49,903 nt of DNA, taken from Rubellimicrobium aerolatum. Lineage in GTDB: Bacteria > Pseudomonadota > Alphaproteobacteria > Rhodobacterales > Rhodobacteraceae. This document shows positions 7,311 to 42,464 of this stretch, piece by piece; the stretch's first letter is position 1, and the number at the start of each line of letters is the position of its first letter. Location: the NCBI RefSeq assembly GCF_017872975.1, contig NZ_JAGGJP010000020.1:1-49903 (forward strand). Direction: 5' to 3'. The translations under genes and the position numbers were made by a program. The notes under the pieces are model-generated. The model saw only the letters and a program-made list of their open reading frames with translations, was not told the origin of the DNA and searched no databases.

Positions 7311-7433
7311 TCAGGCGCCCCGGATGCGGGTGGCGGGGCCGAGGACCGTCGCGGGGGCGATGAGCCACAGGAGGTCCGGGGCGGGGAGGCGGCGCGGCGG
7401 GAGCTGCGCGAGACCGAGGCCGAGGCCGAGCAT
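7311..7433 (-). CDS. 40-residue hydrophobic/Pro-rich small protein coupled to the spike base protein gene
   Basis: The start codon overlaps the stop of the upstream gene as TGATG (shared A at 7433), a classic translational-coupling arrangement. The product begins MLGLGLGLAQLPPRR and ends PATRIRGA, with one short hydrophobic stretch (LLWLIAPATVL). I recall tiny proteins beginning with Gly-Leu repeats next to spike-base-protein genes in other Rhodobacterales; that is memory, not a search. The hairpin right after its stop supports it as the last gene of the unit. No function can be assigned. Confidence 0.45.
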   Translation of the reverse strand: MLGLGLGLAQLPPRRLPAPDLLWLIAPATVLGPATRIRGA

Positions 7434-7690
7434 CAGTCCCACCCGTACACGGTGGCGGTGGTGCCGGTCGCCCGCACCTTGGCGGGGCGCAGCGGCAGGA
7501 TCTGGCCGGCCTGCACCGCGTAGGTGAGGCGGGTGCCCTGCGCGTCCTCGATCACGAGGTCGCCGGCCGTCTGGCACCAGAGCGCGCGGGGGCGCGGGTC
7601 GATGGGCTGCGCGTCCGAGGGGACGATGGCGAAGTGACGCTCGCCGGGGCTGTCGAGGCCGCGCTGGTGGGTCGAGAAGTGGTCGGGCAT
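7433..7690 (-). CDS. Spike base protein, RCAP_Rcc01079 family (gene-transfer-agent head-spike type)
   Basis: An 85-residue small beta-rich protein with the family pattern: FSTHQRGLDSPGERHFAIVPSD near the N-terminus, a central RALWCQTAGDLVIED, and the closing GQILPLRPAKVRATGTTATVYG. In Rhodobacter capsulatus the homologue Rcc01079 belongs to the head-spike locus of the gene transfer agent, encoded away from the main structural cluster. That would also explain its isolation here among metabolic genes. GGAGGA lies 8 nt before the ATG. The gene is followed by a coupled 40-aa ORF and preceded by a bipartite 33-bp motif (7754-7786) that recurs at 41145-41177. A small phage-derived structural protein outside a GTA is the main alternative. 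Confidence 0.65.
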   Translation of the reverse strand: MPDHFSTHQRGLDSPGERHFAIVPSDAQPIDPRPRALWCQTAGDLVIEDAQGTRLTYAVQAGQILPLRPAKVRATGTTATVYGWD

Positions 7691-7753
7691 GAAAGGTCCT
7701 CCTGGTGGTTGCCTGCGAGCAAACTACCGGGGAGGGACGGACGGATTCCTACA

Positions 7754-7786
7754 GCAACGAACGCTCGGGGGGCGGTTCGCGCAACG
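7754..7786 (-). promoter_or_regulatory. Bipartite motif GCAACGAACGC-N11-TTCGCGCAACG, copy A (spike base protein gene)
   Basis: On the plus strand GCAACGAACGC (7754-7764) and TTCGCGCAACG (7776-7786) flank 11 nt. The motif ends 63 bp upstream of the spike-base-protein ATG. The same two half-sites with the same 11-nt gap occur at 41145-41177, and no other intergenic copy was seen in this window. A related TTCCGCAAC lies 25 nt further out (7801-7809). Similarity between the two loci continues on the gene-proximal side (TCCGTC at the same distance). It is probably an operator or activator site. Confidence 0.5.
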
Positions 7787-7837: not shown

Positions 7838-8986
7838 TCAGGCGTCGGCGGAGAAGGAAAACTCCATCCGGTGTAGATACTTGTCGCCCGGCCGCAGGGT
7901 GCTGTCCGGGAAATGCGGGTGATTCGGGGAGCCGGGGAACCGCTGGGTTTCGAGCGTGAAGCCCGCGAATCGCCGGAGAGGCGTGTCGTTCTTGCCACGG
8001 ATCGAATCGGTCAGGTAGCCGCCCGCGTAGAGCTGGACTCCGGGCTGGTCGGTCCGCAGGAGGAGGCGGCGGCCGGAGGCGGGATCGAGGGCCTCGGCGC
8101 AGGCGCGGAGGCCGTCGGCGTCGGTGGGATCGCCCAGGACCCAGTTGTGGTCGTAGCCGTTGCCGTAACCTGCGGTTGATTCCAGACCGGACTTGATCCC
8201 CGTGGACGGGGGCGGAGGGGCCGGTTCGGAGGTCTCAGGACCGGACTTGATCCCGGCGGGCTGGGGGTCGTCTCCCGTTCCGGTTGCGCCCAGACCGGAC
8301 ATATGCTGGCCGATGGGCTTGGGGGTCGTGAAGTCGAAGGGGGTGCCGGCGACGGCGCGGACCTCGCCGGTCGCGAGGAGCCCGGAATCGACGGGGGTGG
8401 TGAAGGGGGCGGCGAGGCGGAGGTGCTGGCCCAGCACGTCGCCCTGCCCCGCGAGGTTGAAGTAGGAGTGATGGACGATGTTGACGGGCGTCGGCGCGGT
8501 GGCGGTCGCCTCCATGGTGATGAGGAGGCGGGCGTCGGGGGTCAGCTCGTAGGTGGTGCGGAGATCGCAGGCGCCGGGATAGCCCATCTCGCCGTCGAGG
8601 GAGGTGGCGGTGAAGGTGGCGCGGGTGGCGGTCGCCTCGGCCAGAGTCCAGGTCTTGCGGTCGAAGCCGTCGCGGCCGCCGTGGAGGTGGTTGGGGCCTT
8701 CGTTCAGGTCGAGCTGGTGGTCGGTGCCGTCGAGCGTGAAGCGGCCCCGGCGGATGCGGTTGGCGTAGCGGCCGCAGGTCGCGCCGAAGTAGGTGGTCGT
8801 CGCGAGGTAGTCGTCGAGGGTGTCGAAGCCGAGCACGATGTCGGCGGTGCGGCCGTCGCGGCCGGGGACGTGGAGTTCCGTCAGGCGCGCGCCGTAGGTG
8901 ATGAGGCGGGCGCGGAGGCCGCCGTTCGAGAGCGTCACCGCCTGCACGATCTGGTCGCCGATGCGCCCGAACTCCGTGACCGCCAT
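7838..8986 (-). CDS. galM: Aldose 1-epimerase (galactose mutarotase)
   Basis: A 382-residue enzyme interconverting alpha and beta anomers of aldoses. Visible family features are NGGLRARLITYGARLTELHVPGRDG, the substrate-binding GATCGRYANRI and NEGPNHLHGG (catalytic-type His), the VNIVHHSYFNLAGQ active-site His, GYDHNWVLG, and the C-terminal FAGFTLETQRFPGSPNHPHFP with the catalytic Glu. An unusual Pro/Ser/Gly-rich insertion of about 36 residues sits between IGQHM and GYDHNW; it explains the extra length over the usual 340-350 residues. The ATG at 8986 follows a purine-rich GGGCAGGG. It lies 53 bp downstream of the AbrB-type gene and may be the distal gene of that operon. Confidence 0.93.
   Translation of the reverse strand: MAVTEFGRIGDQIVQAVTLSNGGLRARLITYGARLTELHVPGRDGRTADIVLGFDTLDDYLATTTYFGATCGRYANRIRRGRFTLDGTDHQLDLNEGPNHLHGGRDGFDRKTWTLAEATATRATFTATSLDGEMGYPGACDLRTTYELTPDARLLITMEATATAPTPVNIVHHSYFNLAGQGDVLGQHLRLAAPFTTPVDSGLLATGEVRAVAGTPFDFTTPKPIGQHMSGLGATGTGDDPQPAGIKSGPETSEPAPPPPSTGIKSGLESTAGYGNGYDHNWVLGDPTDADGLRACAEALDPASGRRLLLRTDQPGVQLYAGGYLTDSIRGKNDTPLRRFAGFTLETQRFPGSPNHPHFPDSTLRPGDKYLHRMEFSFSADA
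8183..8302 (-). repeat. Imperfect 54-bp tandem repeat inside galM
   Basis: A 16-bp core, GACCGGACTTGATCCC on the plus strand, occurs at about 8186 and about 8239. A shorter third copy (CAGACCGGAC) starts at 8291. The period is about 54 bp, or 18 codons. In protein it reads as MSGLGAT.., GIKSGPETSE.. and GIKSGLEST.., which forms the extra segment of GalM. Confidence 0.7.
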
Positions 8987-13604: not shown

Positions 13605-16600
13605 TCATTCGGCGGCCAGGGCGTGGGGGCTGGGAGGACGCGCGGGGCGGTCGAGGTCGGCGAGGAGGCGGGCGCGGGTCGTGGCGGCGGCCTCCATCGC
13701 GGCGGCCTTGACGGGACCGTAGCCGCGAATCTGGTTGGCGAGGTCGAGGAGCTGGAGCGCCGTGGGGGCATTGGCGTCGGTGAGGCGGGCGAGGACGAGG
13801 GCCACGTCGGATTCGTAGGTGGCGAGCAGGGCGCGCTCGGCCCGGCGTTCGGCGGTGCGGGCGAAGGGGTCGAAGGGGGTGCCGCGCAGGTGGCGGAGGC
13901 GCGCGAGGAGGCGGAGGACGGGGAAGATGCGGGGGCCGAACTCGCGCTTGGGCGGGCGGCCGTCGGGGCGGGAGGACCGGAGGCCGGGGGGGACGAGGTT
14001 GAGGGCGATGCGGGCGTCGCCCTCGAAGGCGTCGGCGAGGCCCTGACGGAACGCAGGGGCGGTCAGGAGGCGGGCGACCTCGTATTCGTCCTTGGGGGCG
14101 AGGAGGCGGGCGTAGCCGGTGGCCGTGGCGCGGGTGATCCGGTCGCGCATGGCGGGGTCGGAGAGGGTCCGCGTCCCCTGCCCCACCCTGTCCACCAGGG
14201 CGGCGTAGCGGGAGGCCAGGCGGCGGTCCTGGTAGGCGGTCAGGTGGGCGCGGCGGTGGGCGACGATCTCCGGGATGGTCATGTCGTCCTGCGCGCGGCC
14301 GGGGGGCCGGGGGCGCGGCAGGCGGGCGGTGTCGTGGGCCAGGAGGCGGCCCCAGGCGAAGGCGTCGAGGTTGGCCGGCACGGCGACGCCGTTGAGGCGG
14401 ATCGCGTCCTCGATGGCGGCGCGGGAGACGGGGACGAGGCCCATCTGCCAGGCATGGCCGAGGAGGAGGATGTTGGCGGCGATCTCGTCCCCCGCGACGG
14501 CGAGGCCGGCGGCGGTGAAGTCGTGGAGGTGCGCGGCGCGCAGGTGGCTGCGGAGGAGCGATTCGGTGTCGCGTTGGCGGAAGTCGAGGTCGCGGTCGAG
14601 GACGAAGCCGGCGACGGGGACGAGGTGGGTGTTGACCACGCCCACGGTGCGGGCGGGGTCGCAGAGGAGCGCGGCCTCCTTGGACACCGCGACGACGGTG
14701 TCGGCGGCCAGCAGCAGGTCGGCGGCGCCGGTGACGATGCGCGGCTCGGTCAGCGGGCGGTCGCCGGGGCCGAGGCGGATGTGGCTGAGGACCGCCCCGC
14801 CCTTCTGCGCGAGGCCCGCCATGTCGAGCACCATGGGCGAGAGGCCGTCGAGATGGGCGGCCATGCCGAGCACCGCGCCGATGGTGAGGACGCCGGTGCC
14901 GCCCACCCCGGCGACGGCGATGTTCCAGGGGCGGTCCAAGGGCGCGCGCGGGGGATCGGGGAGGTCGGAGGCGTCGGGCGGCGCGGCGGGGGCGAGGCGG
15001 CGGGGGCGGCCGCCGCGCACGGTGACGAAGGAGGGGCAGAAGCCCTTGAGGCAGGAAACGTCCTTGTTGCAGGAGCTTTGGTTGATGCGGCGCTTGCGGC
15101 CCATCTCGGTCTCCAGCGGCTCGATGGCGACGCAGTTGGACTGGGCGGAGCAGTCGCCGCAGCCCTCGCAGACCTCGGGGGAGATCCAGAGGCGGAGGTC
15201 GGGGTCGGGGAGCGTGCCACGCTTCCTCCGCCGGCGCTTCTCGGCGGCGCAGGTCTGGACGTAGATCAGGGCGGTGACGCCGGGGAGGTCGCGCAGCTCG
15301 CGCATCGTGGCTTCGAGGGCGTCGCGGGGGCGGAGGATCGTGCCGGGCGCGAGGGTGGCGGGGTCGAAGGATTCGGGGGTCTCGGCGAGGAGGCGGATCG
15401 TGGCCACCCCCTCGGCGTGGAGCAGGTGGGTCAGCCGCTCGGGCGTCAGCGGGCCGTCGAGGGGCTGGCCGCCGGTCATGGCGACGGCGTCGTTCCAGAG
15501 GATCTTGTAGGTGATGCGGGTGCCCGCCGCGACGGCCTGGCGGATGGCGAGGTGGCCGGAATGGTGGAAGGTGCCGTCGCCGAGGTTGGCGAAGCGGTGG
15601 GGTTCGTCGGTGTAGCGGGAGAGCGCGGTCCAGGGGACGCCCTCGCCGCCCATGTGGGTGATGGTCTCCGTGCTGCGGTCCATCCACTGCGCCATGTAGT
15701 GGCAGCCGATCCCCGCCATGGCGGTGGAGCCCTCCACGACGCGCGTGGAGGCGTTGTGCGGGCAGCCGGCGCAGTACCACGGCTGGCGGAGCACGGGGGG
15801 CTGGTGCTCGGTCATGGCACGTTCGAGGCGCTCCAGGCGCTCGGCGCGCTCGGCGATGCGGGCGCGCAGGTCGTCGGGGAGGCCGTTGGCGAGGAGGCGG
15901 TCGGCGATGGCGCGGGCGACCTGGGCCACCGTCAGGCCCGCCGAGAGGTGCAGGAAGGGGCGGTCCCTGTGGTCGAACTTGCCGACGATGCGGGGGCGCA
16001 CGTCGGCCCGCCAGTTGAAGAGCTGCTGCTTGATCTGGTGCTCGATGATCTCGCGGCGCTCCTCGACCACGAGGACTTCATCGAGGCCCATGGAGAAGGC
16101 GCGGACGCCCTCGGGCTCCAGGGGCCAGGGCATCCGCACCTTGCAGATGCGGACGCCGATGCGGTGCAGCTCGGGGGCGCCGAGGCCCAGCTCGCGCAGG
16201 GCCTGGTCCACGTCCTCGTAGGCCTTGCCGGAGGCGATGAGGCCGAAGCGGGCGTGGGGGGTGTCGAAGGTCACCTCGTCCACCCGGTTCGCGCGGGCGA
16301 AGGCGCGGGCGGCGTAGCCCTTCCATTCCTGCAGACGCTCGTCCTGCACGAGCGGCGGGTCGGGCCAGCGGATGTTGAGGCCGCCGGGGGGAAGCTCGAA
16401 GTCGGGAAGGACGAACCGGCGGGATTCGGGGGCAAGGTCCACGGTGGCGGTGGTCTCGACCGTCTCGGAGATGACCTTGAAGCCGACCCAGCAGCCGGAG
16501 AAGCGCGACATGGCGATGCCGAGGAGGCCGAGGGGGAGGAACTCGTGGATGGAGGAGGGGTAGAGCACCGGCATGAGCGCCGAGATGAAGGCGTGGTCGG

Positions 16601-36500: not shown

Positions 36501-37742
36501 ATGACCGCCCTGCCCCTCCGCGCGCTGCTCATCGCCCTGCTGGCAGCCCCGCCCGGCCTCGCCGCCGCGCAGGAGGCGCCAGCGGACGCGCCCGCCGCCA
36601 CCGCGCCGACCGCCGCCCTCCCCGCCATCACCGTCTCGGAGGTGGAGCCCGTCGCGCTGACCGACCGGGTCGTGGCCTCGGGCCTCGTGGACGCGGTGGA
36701 GGAGGTGGCGGTGCAGCCCCTGGTCGAAGGGCAGCCCATCGACGCGCTCTTCGCCGACGTGGGCGACACGGTGGAGGAAGGGCAGGTCCTCGCCCGGCTC
36801 TCGACCTCGACGCTGGAGCTGGAGCTGAGCCAGCTCGCCGCCAACCGCGCCTCGGTCGAGGCGCAGATCGCGCAGGCCGAGGCCAGCCTCGTGCAGGCCA
36901 CCGCCAACGCCGAGGAGGCCGAGCGCGTCGCCGGCCGCAACGCCGAGCTGGTCGAGGCCGGGTCGGTGCCGCAGGCCACCGCCGACCAGACCGCCGCCGC
37001 CGCCGCCGCCTCGCGCGCCGCCGTGCGGGTGGCCGAGCAGGGCATCACCTCGGCGCGGGCGCAGCTCGCGCTCGTGGACGCGCAGGTCGCCAACGCCGAG
37101 CTGCGGCTCCGCCGGACCGAGGTCCGCGCGCCGGTGGCGGGCCTCGTGGTCGCCCGCAACGCCCAGGTGGGCGCCATCGCCTCGGCGGCGGGCGAGCCGA
37201 TGTTCATCCTCGTCCGCGACGGCGCGATGGAGCTGCGCGCCGACGTGTCCGAGCAGGATCTCCTCAAGCTCGCGCCCGGGCAGACGGCGAACCTCCTGGC
37301 GATGGAGGGATCGGACCCGATCCCCGGCCAGGTGCGGCTCGTGGAGCCCGCCATCGACCCCGAGACGCGGCTGGGCGTGGCCCGCATCCGCATCGACGAC
37401 CCGGGGCGGGTGGTGAAGGGGATGTTCCTGACCGCCGAGGTCATCGTCGCCCGTCGCGAGATGCTCGCCGTGCCGGTGAGCGCCGTGGGCACGGGCCCCG
37501 AGGGGGCGAGCGTGCTGCGCGTCGCGGACGGCGTCGTGCGGCGGGTGCCGGTCTTCGTCGGCATCCGCGACGGCGGGCTGATCGGCGTGTCGGGGCTGGG
37601 CCGGGGCGACCTCGTGGTCACCAAGGCCGGCGCCTTCGTGCGCGACGGCGACCGCATCAACCCGATCCCCGCCGGGGCCGCCGGCACGGACACCGCCGCC
37701 GCGGCGCAGGCCGCCACGGCCAGCCAAGGAGCCACGGAATGA
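36501..37742 (+). CDS. RND efflux periplasmic adaptor (membrane fusion protein)
   Basis: A 413-residue adaptor. Signal peptide residues 1-24 (LRALLIALLAAPPGLAAAQ) are followed by a Pro/Ala-rich linker. The split lipoyl domain is LVEGQPIDALFADVGDTVEEGQVLARLSTSTLELELSQL and RTEVRAPVAGLVVARNAQVGAIAS, with a long Ala-rich hairpin coiled coil between them (about 100-195). Beta-barrel and membrane-proximal domains follow (MELRADVSEQDLLKLAPGQTANLL). The C-terminus is an Ala/Thr-rich tail. It links the RND pump to an outer-membrane channel not encoded here. It overlaps the pump gene by 4 bp (ATGA). Confidence 0.95.
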   Translation: MTALPLRALLIALLAAPPGLAAAQEAPADAPAATAPTAALPAITVSEVEPVALTDRVVASGLVDAVEEVAVQPLVEGQPIDALFADVGDTVEEGQVLARLSTSTLELELSQLAANRASVEAQIAQAEASLVQATANAEEAERVAGRNAELVEAGSVPQATADQTAAAAAASRAAVRVAEQGITSARAQLALVDAQVANAELRLRRTEVRAPVAGLVVARNAQVGAIASAAGEPMFILVRDGAMELRADVSEQDLLKLAPGQTANLLAMEGSDPIPGQVRLVEPAIDPETRLGVARIRIDDPGRVVKGMFLTAEVIVARREMLAVPVSAVGTGPEGASVLRVADGVVRRVPVFVGIRDGGLIGVSGLGRGDLVVTKAGAFVRDGDRINPIPAGAAGTDTAAAAQAATASQGATE

Positions 37743-40700
37743 ACTTCTCCGCTTGGGCCATCCGCAACCCGGTCGCGCCGCTCCTCGCCTTCGCGCTGCT
37801 GCTGCTGCTGGGCTGGCAGAGCTTCAACGCCCTGCCGATCACGCGCTTCCCGTCCATCGACGTGCCGCTGGTCGCCGTCACGGTGACGCAGGAGGGCGCG
37901 GCCCCCGCCGAGCTGGAGACGCAGGTCACCAAGATCGTCGAGGATGCCGTGGCCGGCATCGCCGGGGTCAAGACCGTCACCTCGACGGTGGTGGACGGCC
38001 AGTCCTCCACCGCCATCGAGTTCCGCATGGAGATCCCGACCGAGCAGGCCGTGGACGACGTGAAGGACGCCGTGGACCAGGTGCGCGGCGACCTTCCGGC
38101 CGACGTGGACGAGCCGCGCGTCGTCAAGATCGACGTGGAGGGGCAGGCGATCCTGACCTACGCCGTCAGCGCCCCCGCCCTGACCTTCGAGGAGCTGTCC
38201 TGGTTCGTGGACGACACCATCAAGGGCGAGCTCCAGGGCCGCGCCGGCGTCGGCCGGGTGGACCGCTACGGCGGCGCCGACCGGGAGATCCGGGTGGAGC
38301 TGGACCCGCTGCGGCTGGACGCCTACGGGATCACCGCCGCCGCCGTCAGCCAGCAGCTCCGCGCCACCAACGCCAACCAGGGCGCAGGCCGCAGCGAGCT
38401 GGGCGAGGGCGAGCAGGCGATCCGCCTGCTGGGCGACCGGGGCGACGCCGAGCGGCTGGCGCGCACGACCATCGCGCTCCCCTCGGGCCAGCAGGTGCGG
38501 CTGGAGGACCTCGGCACCGTGACCGACACCTTCGAGGAGCTGCGCTCCTTCGCGCGGGTGGACGGGCAGGAGGTCGTGGTCTTCGCGGTGTTCCGGTCGA
38601 AGGGCGCGTCCGAGGTGTCGGTGGACGAGACGGTGACGCAGGCGCTGGACGGCATCCGCGCGGCGAATCCGGGCGTCAGCATCACCAAGGTCGATGACAC
38701 GGTCTTCTACACCTACGGCAACTACGAGGCCGCGCTCCACACGTTGCTGGAAGGGTCGATCCTCGCGGTGCTGGTCGTGCTCGCCTTCCTGCGGAACTGG
38801 CGCGCGACGCTGATCGCCGCCGTGGCGCTGCCGCTGTCGGCCATCCCGACCTTCTGGCTGATGGACCTGCTGGGCTTCTCGCTCAACCTCGTGAGCTTCC
38901 TGGCCATCACGCTGGCGACGGGCATCCTGGTGGACGACGCCATCGTGGAGATCGAGAACATCCAGCGGCACATCCGCATGGGCAAGACGCCGTATCGCGC
39001 CGCCATCGAGGCGGCGGACGAGATCGGCCTCGCGGTGATCGCCACCACGTCCACCATCGTGGCGGTGTTCGTGCCCGTCAGCTTCATGCCGGGGATTCCG
39101 GGGCAATACTTCCGGCAGTTCGGCCTGACGGTCGCCATCGCGGTGCTGTTCTCGCTGCTGGTGGCGCGGCTCGTCACGCCGCTCATGGCGGCCTACCTGA
39201 TGCGCGACAAGGACGGGGCGGGGCACGGGGAGCAGAAGGACGGCCTGTTCATGCGGGCCTACATGGCCTTCGTGAGGGTGACGCTGAAGGTGCGCTACCT
39301 GACGCTGCTGGCCGCCTTCGGCATCCTGGGCGTGTCGCTCTACTTCATGGCGCAGGTGCCGGGGTCGTTCATCCCGCCCGAGGACGTGAGCCGCTTCCCC
39401 ATCTCGGTGGAGCTGCCGCCCGGCGTCACCCTGGAGGAGACCGAGCGGACGACGGACGCCATCCACGCCCGCATCGCCGACGTGGACGGCGTGCAGAGCG
39501 TGTTCGTGCTGGGCGGCTCCTCGCCCACCGGCGACATGGACGTGCGACGGGCGAGCGTCACGGTCATCCTCGACCGGCTCGACAACTCGCTCGAACGCAA
39601 GCTCCTCGACCTCGCGGAGCGGGTGCCGGTGCTGGGGGCCCTCGTGCCGGACGTGCCGCCGCACGGGCGCGTCCGCCCGCAGGCCGAGATCGAGCAGGAG
39701 GTCTTCGCGCGGCTGGCGGGCATCCCCGACATCCGGGTGCTGAAGCTCAACGACCGGGGCGAGCGCGACATCTCGTATTGGGTCAAGGCCGACGACCCCG
39801 AGGCGCTGGCCGAGGCCGTCGCCCGCATGGAGGCGGCGCTGCGGGGCGAGCCCACGCTCCAGGCCGTCGCGACCGAGGGCGCCCTGCCCCGGCCCGAGGT
39901 GCAGGTGACGCCGCGCGCCGAGGAGGCCGCCCGGCTGGGCGTCACGACGGCGGCCATCGCCGAGGCGGTGCGCGTCGCCACCATCGGCGACATCGAGGCG
40001 GCGCTGGCCAAGGTGAGCGTCGGCGACCGGCAGATCCCGGTGCGGGTGCAGCTGAGCGAGGCCGCGCGCGAGGACCTGTCGCGGATCGCCGCGCTCCGCA
40101 TCCCCACCGCGAACGGCGGCTCGGTGCCGCTGAACGCCGTGGCGGACGTGGAGATCGCCGAGGGGCCGTCGGTCGTGGAGCGGATCAACCGGCAACGCTA
40201 TGTCACCATCGGGGCGAACCTGCCCCCCGGCGTGGCGCTGGGCACCGCGCAGGCGCGGTTCGACGCGATCGTCGGCGGGCTGGAGCTGCCGGCGGGCGTC
40301 GTCGTCACCGCCGCCGGCGACGCCGAGATCCAGGCCGAGATGCAGCAGAGCTTCGGCAACGCCATGCTGCTCGGGCTGCTGCTCGTGCTGGCGGTGCTGG
40401 TGCTGCTGTTCCATTCGGTCATCCAGCCCTTCACGATCCTGTTCTCGCTCCCCCTCGCCATCGGCGGCGTGGCGGCGGCGCTGATCGTGACCTCCAGCCC
40501 GCTCTCCATGCCGGTGCTCATCGGCATCCTGATGCTGATGGGGATCGTGACCAAGAACGCCATCCTGCTGGTGGACTTCGCCATCGAGATGCGGGCGCGG
40601 GGGATGAGCCGCTTCGACGCCATCGTCGAGGCCGGGCACAAGCGGGCGCGGCCGATCGTGATGACCTCCATCGCCATGTCGGCGGGGATGCTGCCCTCGG

Positions 40701-41014
40701 CGCTGGGCGTGGGCGAAGGGGGATCGTTCCGCGCGCCCATGGCGACGGCGGTGATCGGCGGGATCATCGTCTCGACGGTCCTGTCCCTGGTCATCGTGCC
40801 GTCCTTCTTCCTCATCATGGACGACATCCAGCGGGGCCTGAGCTGGATGTTCAGCCGGTTCGTGGGCGCCAAGGAGGCCGAGCCCGAGGAGCCGGGCGCG
40901 GCGGAGCTGGCGGCGGGACTCGCCGCGCGGCGCGCGGAGATCGCGGCCCTCGAATCGCGGCTCGTCCGGCTGGAGGCCGAGGGCGCGCGTCCGGTTCTTC
41001 ATGTAGCCGAGTAG
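37739..41014 (+). CDS. RND family efflux permease (HAE1/AcrB-like)
   Basis: A 1091-residue inner-membrane proton-driven pump. It opens MNFSAWAIRNPVAPLLAFALLLLLGWQSF (helix 1) and has two large periplasmic loops. Helix 4 carries the proton-relay pair in ATGILVDDAIVEIENIQRH (Asp-Asp). The second half has helix 10-11 motifs PLSMPVLIGILMLMGIVTKNAILLVDFAIEMRARGMSRFDAIVEAGHKRARPIVMTSIAMSAGMLPSALGVGEGGSFRAPMA. The last about 50 residues form a soluble coiled coil (AELAAGLAARRAEIAALESRLVRLEAEG). The final codons overlap, on the opposite strand, an orphan Shine-Dalgarno/ATG (41026). Substrates are unknown. Confidence 0.96.
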   Translation: MNFSAWAIRNPVAPLLAFALLLLLGWQSFNALPITRFPSIDVPLVAVTVTQEGAAPAELETQVTKIVEDAVAGIAGVKTVTSTVVDGQSSTAIEFRMEIPTEQAVDDVKDAVDQVRGDLPADVDEPRVVKIDVEGQAILTYAVSAPALTFEELSWFVDDTIKGELQGRAGVGRVDRYGGADREIRVELDPLRLDAYGITAAAVSQQLRATNANQGAGRSELGEGEQAIRLLGDRGDAERLARTTIALPSGQQVRLEDLGTVTDTFEELRSFARVDGQEVVVFAVFRSKGASEVSVDETVTQALDGIRAANPGVSITKVDDTVFYTYGNYEAALHTLLEGSILAVLVVLAFLRNWRATLIAAVALPLSAIPTFWLMDLLGFSLNLVSFLAITLATGILVDDAIVEIENIQRHIRMGKTPYRAAIEAADEIGLAVIATTSTIVAVFVPVSFMPGIPGQYFRQFGLTVAIAVLFSLLVARLVTPLMAAYLMRDKDGAGHGEQKDGLFMRAYMAFVRVTLKVRYLTLLAAFGILGVSLYFMAQVPGSFIPPEDVSRFPISVELPPGVTLEETERTTDAIHARIADVDGVQSVFVLGGSSPTGDMDVRRASVTVILDRLDNSLERKLLDLAERVPVLGALVPDVPPHGRVRPQAEIEQEVFARLAGIPDIRVLKLNDRGERDISYWVKADDPEALAEAVARMEAALRGEPTLQAVATEGALPRPEVQVTPRAEEAARLGVTTAAIAEAVRVATIGDIEAALAKVSVGDRQIPVRVQLSEAAREDLSRIAALRIPTANGGSVPLNAVADVEIAEGPSVVERINRQRYVTIGANLPPGVALGTAQARFDAIVGGLELPAGVVVTAAGDAEIQAEMQQSFGNAMLLGLLLVLAVLVLLFHSVIQPFTILFSLPLAIGGVAAALIVTSSPLSMPVLIGILMLMGIVTKNAILLVDFAIEMRARGMSRFDAIVEAGHKRARPIVMTSIAMSAGMLPSALGVGEGGSFRAPMATAVIGGIIVSTVLSLVIVPSFFLIMDDIQRGLSWMFSRFVGAKEAEPEEPGAAELAAGLAARRAEIAALESRLVRLEAEGARPVLHVAE

Positions 41015-41026
41015 GGTCGTCAGCAT
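40949..41026 (-). other. Orphan Shine-Dalgarno and start codon antisense to the RND gene 3' end (possible gene remnant)
   Basis: On the minus strand AAAGGAGG is followed 7 nt later by ATG (41026) and the reading MLTTLLGYMKNRTRALGLQ. The frame stays open far into the RND gene, but after about 20-25 residues it reads like ordinary antisense of a GC-rich gene. A bipartite motif identical in half-sites and spacing to that of the spike-base-protein gene lies 118 bp upstream in the same orientation. Either a short real gene, a truncated remnant, or chance. I do not recognise the peptide. Confidence 0.3.
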
Positions 41027-41062
41027 CGTCGGGCCTCCTTTCGGGTCTGGCGGTTTCGGGGG

Positions 41063-41089: not shown

Positions 41090-41144
41090 GTTGTCTCGTC
41101 GTGTGGGAATCAGCATAGCCGGAGAGCGTTGACGGAGCCTGACG

Positions 41145-41177
41145 GCAACGAACGCCCAGCCCCCGTTTCGCGCAACG
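41145..41177. promoter_or_regulatory. Bipartite motif GCAACGAACGC-N11-TTCGCGCAACG, copy B
   Basis: GCAACGAACGC (41145-41155) and TTCGCGCAACG (41167-41177) flank 11 nt, matching copy A at 7754-7786 in both half-sites and spacing while the 11 nt between differ. TTCGCGCAAC (41167-41176) also forms an inverted repeat with GTTGCGCGAA (41187-41196). It lies between the orphan minus-strand start at 41026 and the ABC importer gene at 41352, so it could serve either. The orientation relative to copy A favours the minus-strand unit. Confidence 0.5.
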
Positions 41178-41351: not shown

Positions 41352-42464
41352 ATGAGATCGACCATCTGGATGGCGGGGGCCGCCGCGGCGCTTCTGGCCG
41401 GGGCCGCCGGGGCGCAGGACGCCGCCGTGGACCTCGACGCGCTGTATGCCGCCGCGCAGGAGGAAGGGATGCTGACCACCATCGCCCTGCCCCATGACTG
41501 GTGCAACTACGGCGCGATGATCGAGGGCTTCAAGGCGAAGTTTCCCGGCATCGAGGTCAACGAGCTGAACCCCAACGGGTCGTCGGCCGACGAGCTGGAG
41601 GCGGTGCGGGCCAACAGGGACAACACCGGCCCGCAGGCGCCGGACGTGCTGGACGTGGGCCTGAGCTTCGGCCCGGCCGCGCAGGAGGAGGGGCTGGTTC
41701 AGCCCTACAAGGTGTCGGTCTGGGATTCGATCCCCGAGGGCGCCAAGGACCCCGACGGCCACTGGTATGGCGACTACTACGGCGTCACCTCGTTCGTGGT
41801 GAACACCGACCTCGTGGACCCGGTGCCGGCCTCCTTCGCGGACCTGCTGAAGCCCGACTACGCGGGCATGGTGGCGCTGGCGGGCGACCCGCGCACGGCC
41901 AACAACGCCGCGATGGCGGTGATGGCGGCGGGGATCGCGCGCGGGGGCGAGCCGGGCGCGGGGACGGCCGAGGCCGGGCTCCAGTTCTTCAAGGAGATGA
42001 ACGAGGCGGGCAACTTCGTGCCCGTGGACGCCTCGTCGGGGTCGCTGGCGCAGGGCACGACGCCCATCGTCGTGGACTGGGACTACAACGGCCTGTCCAC
42101 GCGCGACCAGATGGCGGGCAACCCGCCGGTCGAGGTGGTCGTGCCCTCGGACGGGCTGGTGGCGGGGGTCTACGTGCAGGCGATCTCGGCCTATGCGCCG
42201 CACCCGAACGCCGCGAAGCTGTGGATGGAATACATCTACTCGGACGAGGGGCAGCTCCACTGGCTGTCGGGCTACTGCACGCCCATCCGCTTCACCGACA
42301 TGGTGGCGCGGGGCGTGGTGCCGCAGGAGATGCTGGACAAGCTGCCGCCCGCCGAGGCCTACGAGGCCGCCGTCTTCCCGAGCCTGGAGCAGGTGACGAC
42401 CCATTCCAGCGCCGTCCAGCAGGGCTGGGACACGGTGGTGGGCGCCGAGATCGCGGCCGAGTGA
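41352..42464 (+). CDS. ABC transporter extracellular solute-binding protein (iron/polyamine/phosphonate-type, family 1)
   Basis: A 370-residue periplasmic protein. Signal peptide residues 1-21 (MRSTIWMAGAAAALLAGAAGA) are followed by DLDALYAAAQEEGMLTTIALPHDWCNYGAMIEGFKAKFPGIEVNEL. The two cysteines (DWCNYG and SGYCTPIR) are positioned to form a disulfide. The C-terminal LWMEYIYSDEGQLHWLSGYCTPIRF is the usual solute-binding-protein end. Relatives bind polyamines, Fe3+ or aminoethylphosphonate, and the ligand cannot be read here. First gene of an importer operon that ends with a PHP phosphoesterase, hinting at a phosphorylated substrate. A strong hairpin separates it from the first permease gene. 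Confidence 0.92.
   Translation: MRSTIWMAGAAAALLAGAAGAQDAAVDLDALYAAAQEEGMLTTIALPHDWCNYGAMIEGFKAKFPGIEVNELNPNGSSADELEAVRANRDNTGPQAPDVLDVGLSFGPAAQEEGLVQPYKVSVWDSIPEGAKDPDGHWYGDYYGVTSFVVNTDLVDPVPASFADLLKPDYAGMVALAGDPRTANNAAMAVMAAGIARGGEPGAGTAEAGLQFFKEMNEAGNFVPVDASSGSLAQGTTPIVVDWDYNGLSTRDQMAGNPPVEVVVPSDGLVAGVYVQAISAYAPHPNAAKLWMEYIYSDEGQLHWLSGYCTPIRFTDMVARGVVPQEMLDKLPPAEAYEAAVFPSLEQVTTHSSAVQQGWDTVVGAEIAAE

Follow-up and report, generated by a model that had tools for sequence, protein, structure and literature searches.

Two copies of a conserved motif and their surroundings

The window, a stretch of 49,903 nucleotides that makes up contig C20 in a draft assembly of 3.76 Mb, carries the pattern GCAACGAACGC-N11-TTCGCGCAACG exactly at positions 7754-7786 and 41145-41177, as a pattern scan confirmed for the 33-bp motif reported at these two loci by the initial annotation. 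No further match with up to three mismatches was found elsewhere in the window and none in 100 dinucleotide shuffles, in agreement with the view that chance recurrence is unlikely. Both copies are intergenic, as had been stated: copy 1 sits between the spike-base gene (7433-7690) and an ORF ending at 7838, and copy 2 between an RND transporter gene (37739-41014) and a gene at 41352, with accepted genes on either side; the mechanical ORFs that overlap the two copies were discounted as genes.

In the minus-strand reading, a ribosome-binding site and an ATG come after each copy, and TCCGTC is present at promoter positions 42-47 in both, as the initial annotation had also described. The elements of copy 1, all on the minus strand, are an upstream box CGTTGCGCGAA (7776-7786, promoter positions 1-11, corresponding to about -72 to -62 with the -10 as predicted), a CG box CGTTCGTTGC (7754-7763, positions 24-33, about -49 to -40), a degenerate CGTCCGT at the place of CGTTAAC (7737-7743, positions 44-50, by the register of the 41-copy alignment described below), a predicted -10 hexamer TAGTTT (7721-7726, positions 61-66) and a ribosome-binding site AGGAGG (7698-7703, scored on the sequence). 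The spacer of this copy has no TTAA. The ATG at 7690 opens the gene of the head-spike base protein (7433-7690, minus strand, 85 aa) of a gene transfer agent (GTA), a virus-like particle that carries DNA between cells; the protein is a member of the RCAP_Rcc01079 family (NCBIfam NF048002, E 2.7e-29).

Copy 2 consists, likewise on the minus strand, of the upstream box CGTTGCGCGAA (41167-41177) and the CG box CGTTCGTTGC (41145-41154), both assigned by exact pattern and alignment, followed by CGTCAAC, a variant of CGTTAAC placed by alignment (41128-41134), a predicted -10 TATGCT in the register common to copy 1 and the other sites (41112-41117), and a ribosome-binding site AGGAGG (41034-41039, scored on the sequence) before an orphan ATG at 41026. 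The frame from this ATG enters the RND transporter gene in antisense after four codons, and the AGGAGG and ATG represent a start set-up, a candidate gene at most. The arrangement at 41026, a promoter with ribosome site and start codon opening a frame that soon reads in antisense against the 3' part of a convergent gene, is recurrent and was seen also at L012, L013, L015, L016, L048, L054, L086, L114, L116, L135, L142 and L158.

Anatomy of the conserved unit

The genome-wide search with up to three mismatches that had been proposed gave 41 places, 9 of them exact, and none with the reversed pattern. Alignment of the 41 copies in the minus orientation showed that the conserved unit exceeds the 33-mer, spanning about -5 to +66, in the order GGGGG run, CGTTGCGCGAA (box 1), a gap NYGSSSSCYGA, CGTTCGTTGC (box 2), TGTCRG, CGTTAAC and TGnnATnCT, past which conservation drops. 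The N11 gap therefore carries a pattern of its own. Positions 2-9 of box 1 are invariant in these copies, which had been selected with a pattern containing this box.

The final element has the features of a sigma-70 extended -10, with A at -11, T at -7 and TG upstream, and positions 61-66 would serve as the -10 hexamer. In genome alignments A62 and T66 are each conserved at 90-93% and G59 at 84-88%. The commonest hexamers are GATTCT, CATCCT and CATTCT, with T rare at position 61, and the TAGTTT and TATGCT of the window are nearer the textbook hexamer. Visual inspection of the alignments gave no canonical -35. A poor -35 together with fixed boxes upstream and within the spacer suggests that an activator would be required.

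A hairpin reading of the 33-mer was tried and rejected, no consistent pairing partner being seen in the alignment or in an inverted-repeat scan. The wider proposal that the motif works at the RNA level, in a leader or riboswitch, and not as DNA would suit its strong conservation and its position before start codons, but we regard it as extremely improbable, given that a hexamer resembling a -10 closes the conserved block, that the ribosome site comes 20-130 nt later, and that the gap alternates runs of G and C for which no consistent partner was seen.

A family of about one hundred sites

A sequence model returned 113 matches in the genome at E ≤ 10, of which 104 were fetched, the 9 with E > 0.2 being left out; L134, L153 and L168 were then dropped with register scores below 15, and 101 sites were kept. 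A core-only model gave 100 matches at E ≤ 0.01. The 33-mer is thus one version of a larger promoter-like family of about 100 sites, whose layout comprises a TGTTGCGCGAA box, a CGnnCGnTGC box, CGTTAAC and a -10 in fixed register, usually followed by a ribosome site and start codon. The CGnnCGnTGC box, which corresponds to box 2, is the most conserved part of the 101 sites. Upstream of the core, 65 sites have box 1 in the form GTTGCGCG, 29 a CGCAAC dyad and 6 a TTAA-N7-TTAA (full in 2/101 and weak in 4/101), and one has none. TTAA occupies positions 46-49 in 74/101 sites. A GANTC (CcrM-type) sequence overlaps the -10, at positions 61-65, in 29/101 sites; a CcrM/GcrA reading, considered for this reason, was kept as a side observation.

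A good ribosome site and start codon lie 20-130 nt downstream of 48 of the 62 sites that have no repeated tail (see below), against 6/62 in the reverse direction and 1-3/62 at shifted positions, which argues for promoter-like behaviour. Some of the genes reached in this way encode small proteins (MDP.., MNPE.., MPLDH.., MPFD..), some in multiple copies per genome, at L005, L017, L020, L024, L125, L127 and L128, with similar ones in the sister genome G007 (L111, L198, L200, L205); Pfam gave no match for those of L005, L017, L020 and L024. A search with the exact pattern in a collection of 84,980 species, outside which the present genome possibly lies, yielded 15 scattered single matches in unrelated phyla that were judged to be chance.

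Genes behind the sites

The promoter precedes all six of the GTA loci examined, namely a terS-like ORF, the portal gene, a gafA-like gene, the endolysin gene, the head-spike base gene (copy 1) and a DUF2793 gene, a set drawn up without the holin, maturation, spike-fibre and tspA loci. The GTA cluster contains TerL, portal, protease, capsid, GTA-gp10 and GTA_TIM. The site between TerL and portal scores 57.4, and the core site before the terS-like ORF, with a full TTAA-N7-TTAA upstream, scores 35.7; this ORF is named by position only, as Pfam and PHROG gave no match for it. Short tandem GACCAGACCCCC-type repeats were seen by eye upstream of it (L306, about 16200-16300). The gafA-like gene product matches DUF6456 (E 3.5e-52), with a weak N-terminal HTH match (PF13556, below the cut-off), the GH108 protein is a holin-associated muramidase, and the DUF2793 protein has weak-to-moderate tail-fibre PHROG matches. 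The best 10 of 1306 portal matches in a phage collection include none above 60% identity.

The GTA link suspected in the initial annotation is therefore borne out at the loci examined, but most of the roughly 100 sites precede non-GTA genes or RNA-like repeats. Besides DUF6456, GH108 endolysin, DUF2793 and phage portal, the Pfam assignments behind the sites comprise a Rieske protein, a riboflavin-synthesis protein, argS, a DEAD-type helicase, a molybdopterin oxidoreductase, obgE, alaS, 2-oxoglutarate dehydrogenase E1 (sucA), a TPP enzyme, an HMGL-like enzyme and an RHH regulator; transporters are also found among the site-bearing genes. The spike-base paralogues L224 (in this genome), L225 and L226 have no site above the scan threshold of 18; no site above 18 precedes the second spike-base paralogue at G000:C9:77701-77955, with 73% identity.

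Conservation in the genus

Orthologues of five GTA loci were taken from eight genus genomes, and their upstream stretches were scored with a matrix from which the GTA rows had been excluded; 34 of the 36 exceed 13, a cut chosen after the values were seen. Windows of 362 nt drawn at random from these loci, some of them possibly containing real sites, gave a median of -31.3, with 3/400 above 13. One locus, the best match, was used per genome; the extra DUF2793 matches of G001 and G005 (L269-L276) were left out, and the DUF2793 orthologues used in these two genomes have 48-50% identity over part of the protein. The values below the cut belong to the endolysin (-6.6) and DUF2793 (-5.2) loci of G003, which are within the top 1% range of the random windows and no better, and both of which keep the layout by eye. 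The orthologue search found no portal or GH108 match in G004 and no spike match in G001 or G005. Homologues of gafA (DUF6456) are present in 8/8 genomes, the G004 locus scoring 37.5, and the gafA sites of 4/8 genomes have no TTAA. Box 1 is optional, GTTGCG being seen by eye at about 24 of the 36 GTA-locus sites.

The two copies of the window differ in their conservation. Spike-base orthologues occur in five other genomes of the genus with the site at the same place (scores 16.6-43.2, G003 lowest); copy 1, which the initial annotation would have doubted had the motif been absent from orthologous promoters in close relatives, is thus kept at the GTA orthologues. Copy 2, by contrast, drives no recognised gene, and its site was found in 2/8 genomes (this one and G007) and not in the six others, which have the neighbouring gene.

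All seven other members of the genus have matches to the models R1 and R2, with counts from at least 2 to at least 76, the models having been built from the present genome. Outside the genus, 10/53 genomes have one weak match each (E 0.002-0.009). Of 56 sister-genome sites, 29 lie next to an orthologue of the gene beside a site of the present genome (≥60% identity, >100 aa, same strand), and 32/56 loci have any match under a looser rule.

Endolysin promoters in other genera

The best match of the R2 model outside the genus (G089) lies just upstream of an endolysin gene. The GH108 endolysin is present in 49 of 61 genomes of the family; there were 50 matches other than the genome's own, in 48 genomes, of which 29, from as many other genera, were fetched and read. 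The skeleton CGnnCG-N16-TTAA was found in 22 of these 29 endolysin promoters, 68-86 nt before the start, where the remaining sequence of these loci predicts 0.01, and is missing from the other 7; the N16 spacing had been fixed from the genus, and the shortened boxes were written after the endolysin promoters had been seen. With other spacers between CGnnCG and TTAA, from 8 to 24, the 29 loci gave 0 or 1 match. With N12-AnnnT appended, 20/29 still match. The start codon stands at the assumed place in 24/29 loci.

These results bear on the explanation that the sites belong to a different, genus-specific global regulator or to a growth-linked promoter type, with the GTA genes as passengers. The presence of alaS, argS, obgE, sucA, the TPP enzyme and the HMGL-like synthase in the set would fit such a regulator, and a total of about 100 sites would be large for a GTA activator, Caulobacter GafY having about 20 (PMC11150451). 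We nevertheless consider this explanation quite unlikely, because the promoter is carried by every GTA locus examined, because the one non-GTA site followed through the genus (copy 2) was found in 2/8 genomes, compared with sites kept at 34/36 of the GTA loci, and because the skeleton at endolysin promoters reaches other genera.

RNA-like repeated tails

Downstream, 39 of the 101 sites lead into a long repeated tail of one of three kinds, T1 with 23 copies, T2 with 9 and T3 with 7. T1 (L001-L004 and 19 more) extends about 430 nt after the core, its copies being mosaic, with 72-87% mean identity to the other copies, and many of them end near CTTTGGCTCCAAGTATCCCGGGG. The T2 copies are L072, L136-L138, L147, L156, L166, L167 and L027, the last assigned by eye, and the T3 copies L140, L143-L146, L157 and L169; related tails occur in sister genomes (L088, L092, L108, L210, L211). 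A start codon stands at the usual place in only 2 of these 39 sites, which suggests that the tails are probably non-coding, and T1-T3 are putative RNAs.

A frame common to T2 and to tails of G002, G004 and G007 consists of a variable hairpin, CTGGG-A-GG...CC-GCAAAGA-CCCAG, and a GCGCGT/ACGCGC hairpin; T3 retains the outer stem and the last hairpin, while its GCAAAGA loop is mostly missing. The alignment (A7) was made without the T2 copies L138 and L027 and without any T3 copy. In a covariation test on 12 sequences, with the structure named from one of them, 92.6% of the cells pair. Cells changed on both sides numbered 9, compared with 2.6 in shuffles (0/500 as high), pairs with both-side changes 5 compared with 2.3 (12/500), and further pair types 7 compared with 5.7 (110/500). 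RNAalifold gave a slightly favourable covariation term for the 23 T1 copies (-0.85, with 14/66 pairs changed on both sides) and an unfavourable one for eight T2 copies (+0.62). The folding energies of a 354-nt T1 (z -0.95), a 205-nt T2 (z -0.45) and six short domains (z -1.49 to +1.48) are like those of shuffles, and the case for RNA therefore rests on the 12-sequence covariation test and the conserved frame. Rfam had no match to the four T1, two T2 and one T3 tails tested. A known RNA family had also been considered, and on 10 site loci Rfam returned nothing beyond a tRNA and, at the place of that tRNA, a second match below threshold.

Putative mobile promoters, or promoter propagation, likewise give a single genome numerous near-identical promoters. 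The possibility that the family is a selfish or mobile repeat (REP, MITE or mobile-promoter element) spread by copying draws on the 39 tail-bearing sites and on the T1 copies, which are alike and mosaic within the genome. It would imply positions and orientations independent of genes and non-orthologous between species, whereas the non-tail sites face start codons and 29/56 sister sites stand beside the orthologue of the gene next to the genome's own site. Many sites, including those of one gene system, are thus orthologous between species, in contrast to mobile promoters, and an inverted-repeat scan of L002 gave two weak pairs only; we judge spread by copying very unlikely. At some orthologous places sister genomes have other tails.

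GafA as candidate activator

In R. capsulatus, the GafA promoters are those of the RcGTA cluster, gafA, the rcc00555/6 lysis genes, the rcc01079/80 spikes, the rcc00171 tail fibre and tspA. The present genome offers a similar set, with a TerL/portal cluster, a DUF6456 gene, a holin-associated muramidase (GH108), an Rcc01079-family spike base and a DUF2793 gene, the last with tail-fibre PHROG matches and presumably equivalent to rcc00171. Matches to GafA are annotated DUF6456 (PMC9638019). Binding of GafA has been described at the RcGTA cluster, gafA and lysis promoters (PMC6363796) and 50-100 bp before tspA (PMC13420450), with the C-terminal domain on the -35/-10 and the N-terminal DnaA-like domain on both flanks, and putative GafA sites at two late loci are mentioned with Figure S7 (PMC9638019). 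The position of the sites found here is close to that of the 50-bp GafA probes of R. capsulatus, 50-125 nt before starts (PMC6363796, PMC9638019, PMC13420450), and boxes at about -72, -49 and -29 with the -10 in fixed register are consistent with the probes of PMC9638019. Relative to R. capsulatus, the present sites give boxes and fixed spacing at the nucleotide level, add the TGTTGCGCGAA box and number about 100.

In Caulobacter, where GafY and GafZ are split homologues of GafA, an upstream element is likewise combined with one between -35 and -10, GafY has dispersed sites, as here, many of them before genes of unknown function, and IHF takes part at the GTA promoters (PMC11150451, PMC9632790). 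The element between -35 and -10 is that of GafZ (PMC11150451), and its palindrome, GCGCCCG-CTGGCGC, differs from the sequence found here (PMC11150451, PMC9632790). The GafA elements are unmapped at nucleotide resolution according to the authors of PMC11150451, and the present element was not found in the open-licence literature; Figure S7 of PMC9638019 may contain part of it.

Since the layout, with boxes upstream and CGTTAAC between -35 and -10, fits this published picture of GafA and GafZ, we propose GafA (DUF6456), which activates GTA genes directly, as the probable binder. The reading we consider likely is that each copy in the window forms the upstream half of a minus-strand promoter activated by GafA, at GTA and other genes. 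Such a promoter would run, 5' to 3', from an often present GGGGG through an optional box 1 TGTTGCGCGAA, a patterned spacer, box 2, TGTCRG and CGTTAAC to an extended -10, with CGTTAAC inside the -35/-10 spacer and a poor -35. GafA would bind across -35/-10, its second DNA-binding domain contacting flanking DNA such as box 1. Copy 1 would turn on the GTA head-spike base gene, and copy 2 would fire toward the 3' end of the RND transporter gene and give a short or antisense transcript. The approximately 100 sites would be switched on together, and the motif may mark the targets of a switch that turns the cell into a particle producer. Of the initial proposal of a dispersed binding site for one regulator, the dispersed regulatory site before genes stands; the unit is a whole promoter in a family of about 100 sites, and the single regulator, GafA, is our inference.

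CtrA stays the main rival to GafA because of the TTAAC, which resembles a CtrA half-site: the sites could be CtrA-regulated promoters with accessory upstream boxes and with the GTA loci among many CtrA targets. The fixed place of TTAA in 74/101 sites, the full TTAA-N7-TTAA upstream of the terS-like promoter core and the putative CtrA half-sites at late GTA promoters of R. capsulatus (spike, tail fibre and lysis; PMC9638019) are in line with this. However, only 2/101 sites have a full box and 4 a weak one, and the most strongly conserved parts are CGnnCGnTGC and GTTGCGCG, neither of which is a CtrA sequence; a CtrA regulon would be expected to have TTAA-N7-TTAA or the half-site as its main conserved element, which these sites do not. 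Moreover, TTAA is absent from copy 1 and, in four of the eight genomes, from the gafA site, and the RcGTA cluster promoter is reported to be bound by GafA and unbound by CtrA (PMC6363796). We thus hold regulation by CtrA to be unlikely.

Since many other genes of this genus, and multi-copy RNA-like repeats as well, have the promoter in front of them, GTA production may belong to a much broader cell state. A more far-reaching version of the GafA reading, to which we give slightly less than even chances, is that the GTA activator took over about 100 promoters in the genus, including those of housekeeping genes and of dozens of structured-RNA copies without an Rfam match, making GTA one output of a switch-like producer-cell programme, and that CGnnCG-N16-TTAA-N12-AnnnT is the long-missing family-wide GafA recognition code. 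With a searchable spacing code of this kind, GTA regulons could be recognised in genome sequences, accessory genes could be assigned to the GTA programme, and the idea of a wider differentiation in producer cells could be tested; the RNA-like repeats, present in many copies under the same promoter, are an unexplained component.

Box 2 varies by species, being CGTTCGTTGC or CGCCCGTTGC in the present genome, CGTTCGGTGC/G in G007 and CGCGCG in G001, in a comparison whose sister sites were picked with models of the present genome. This concerted shift is suggestive, and only that, of sites tracking a changing protein.
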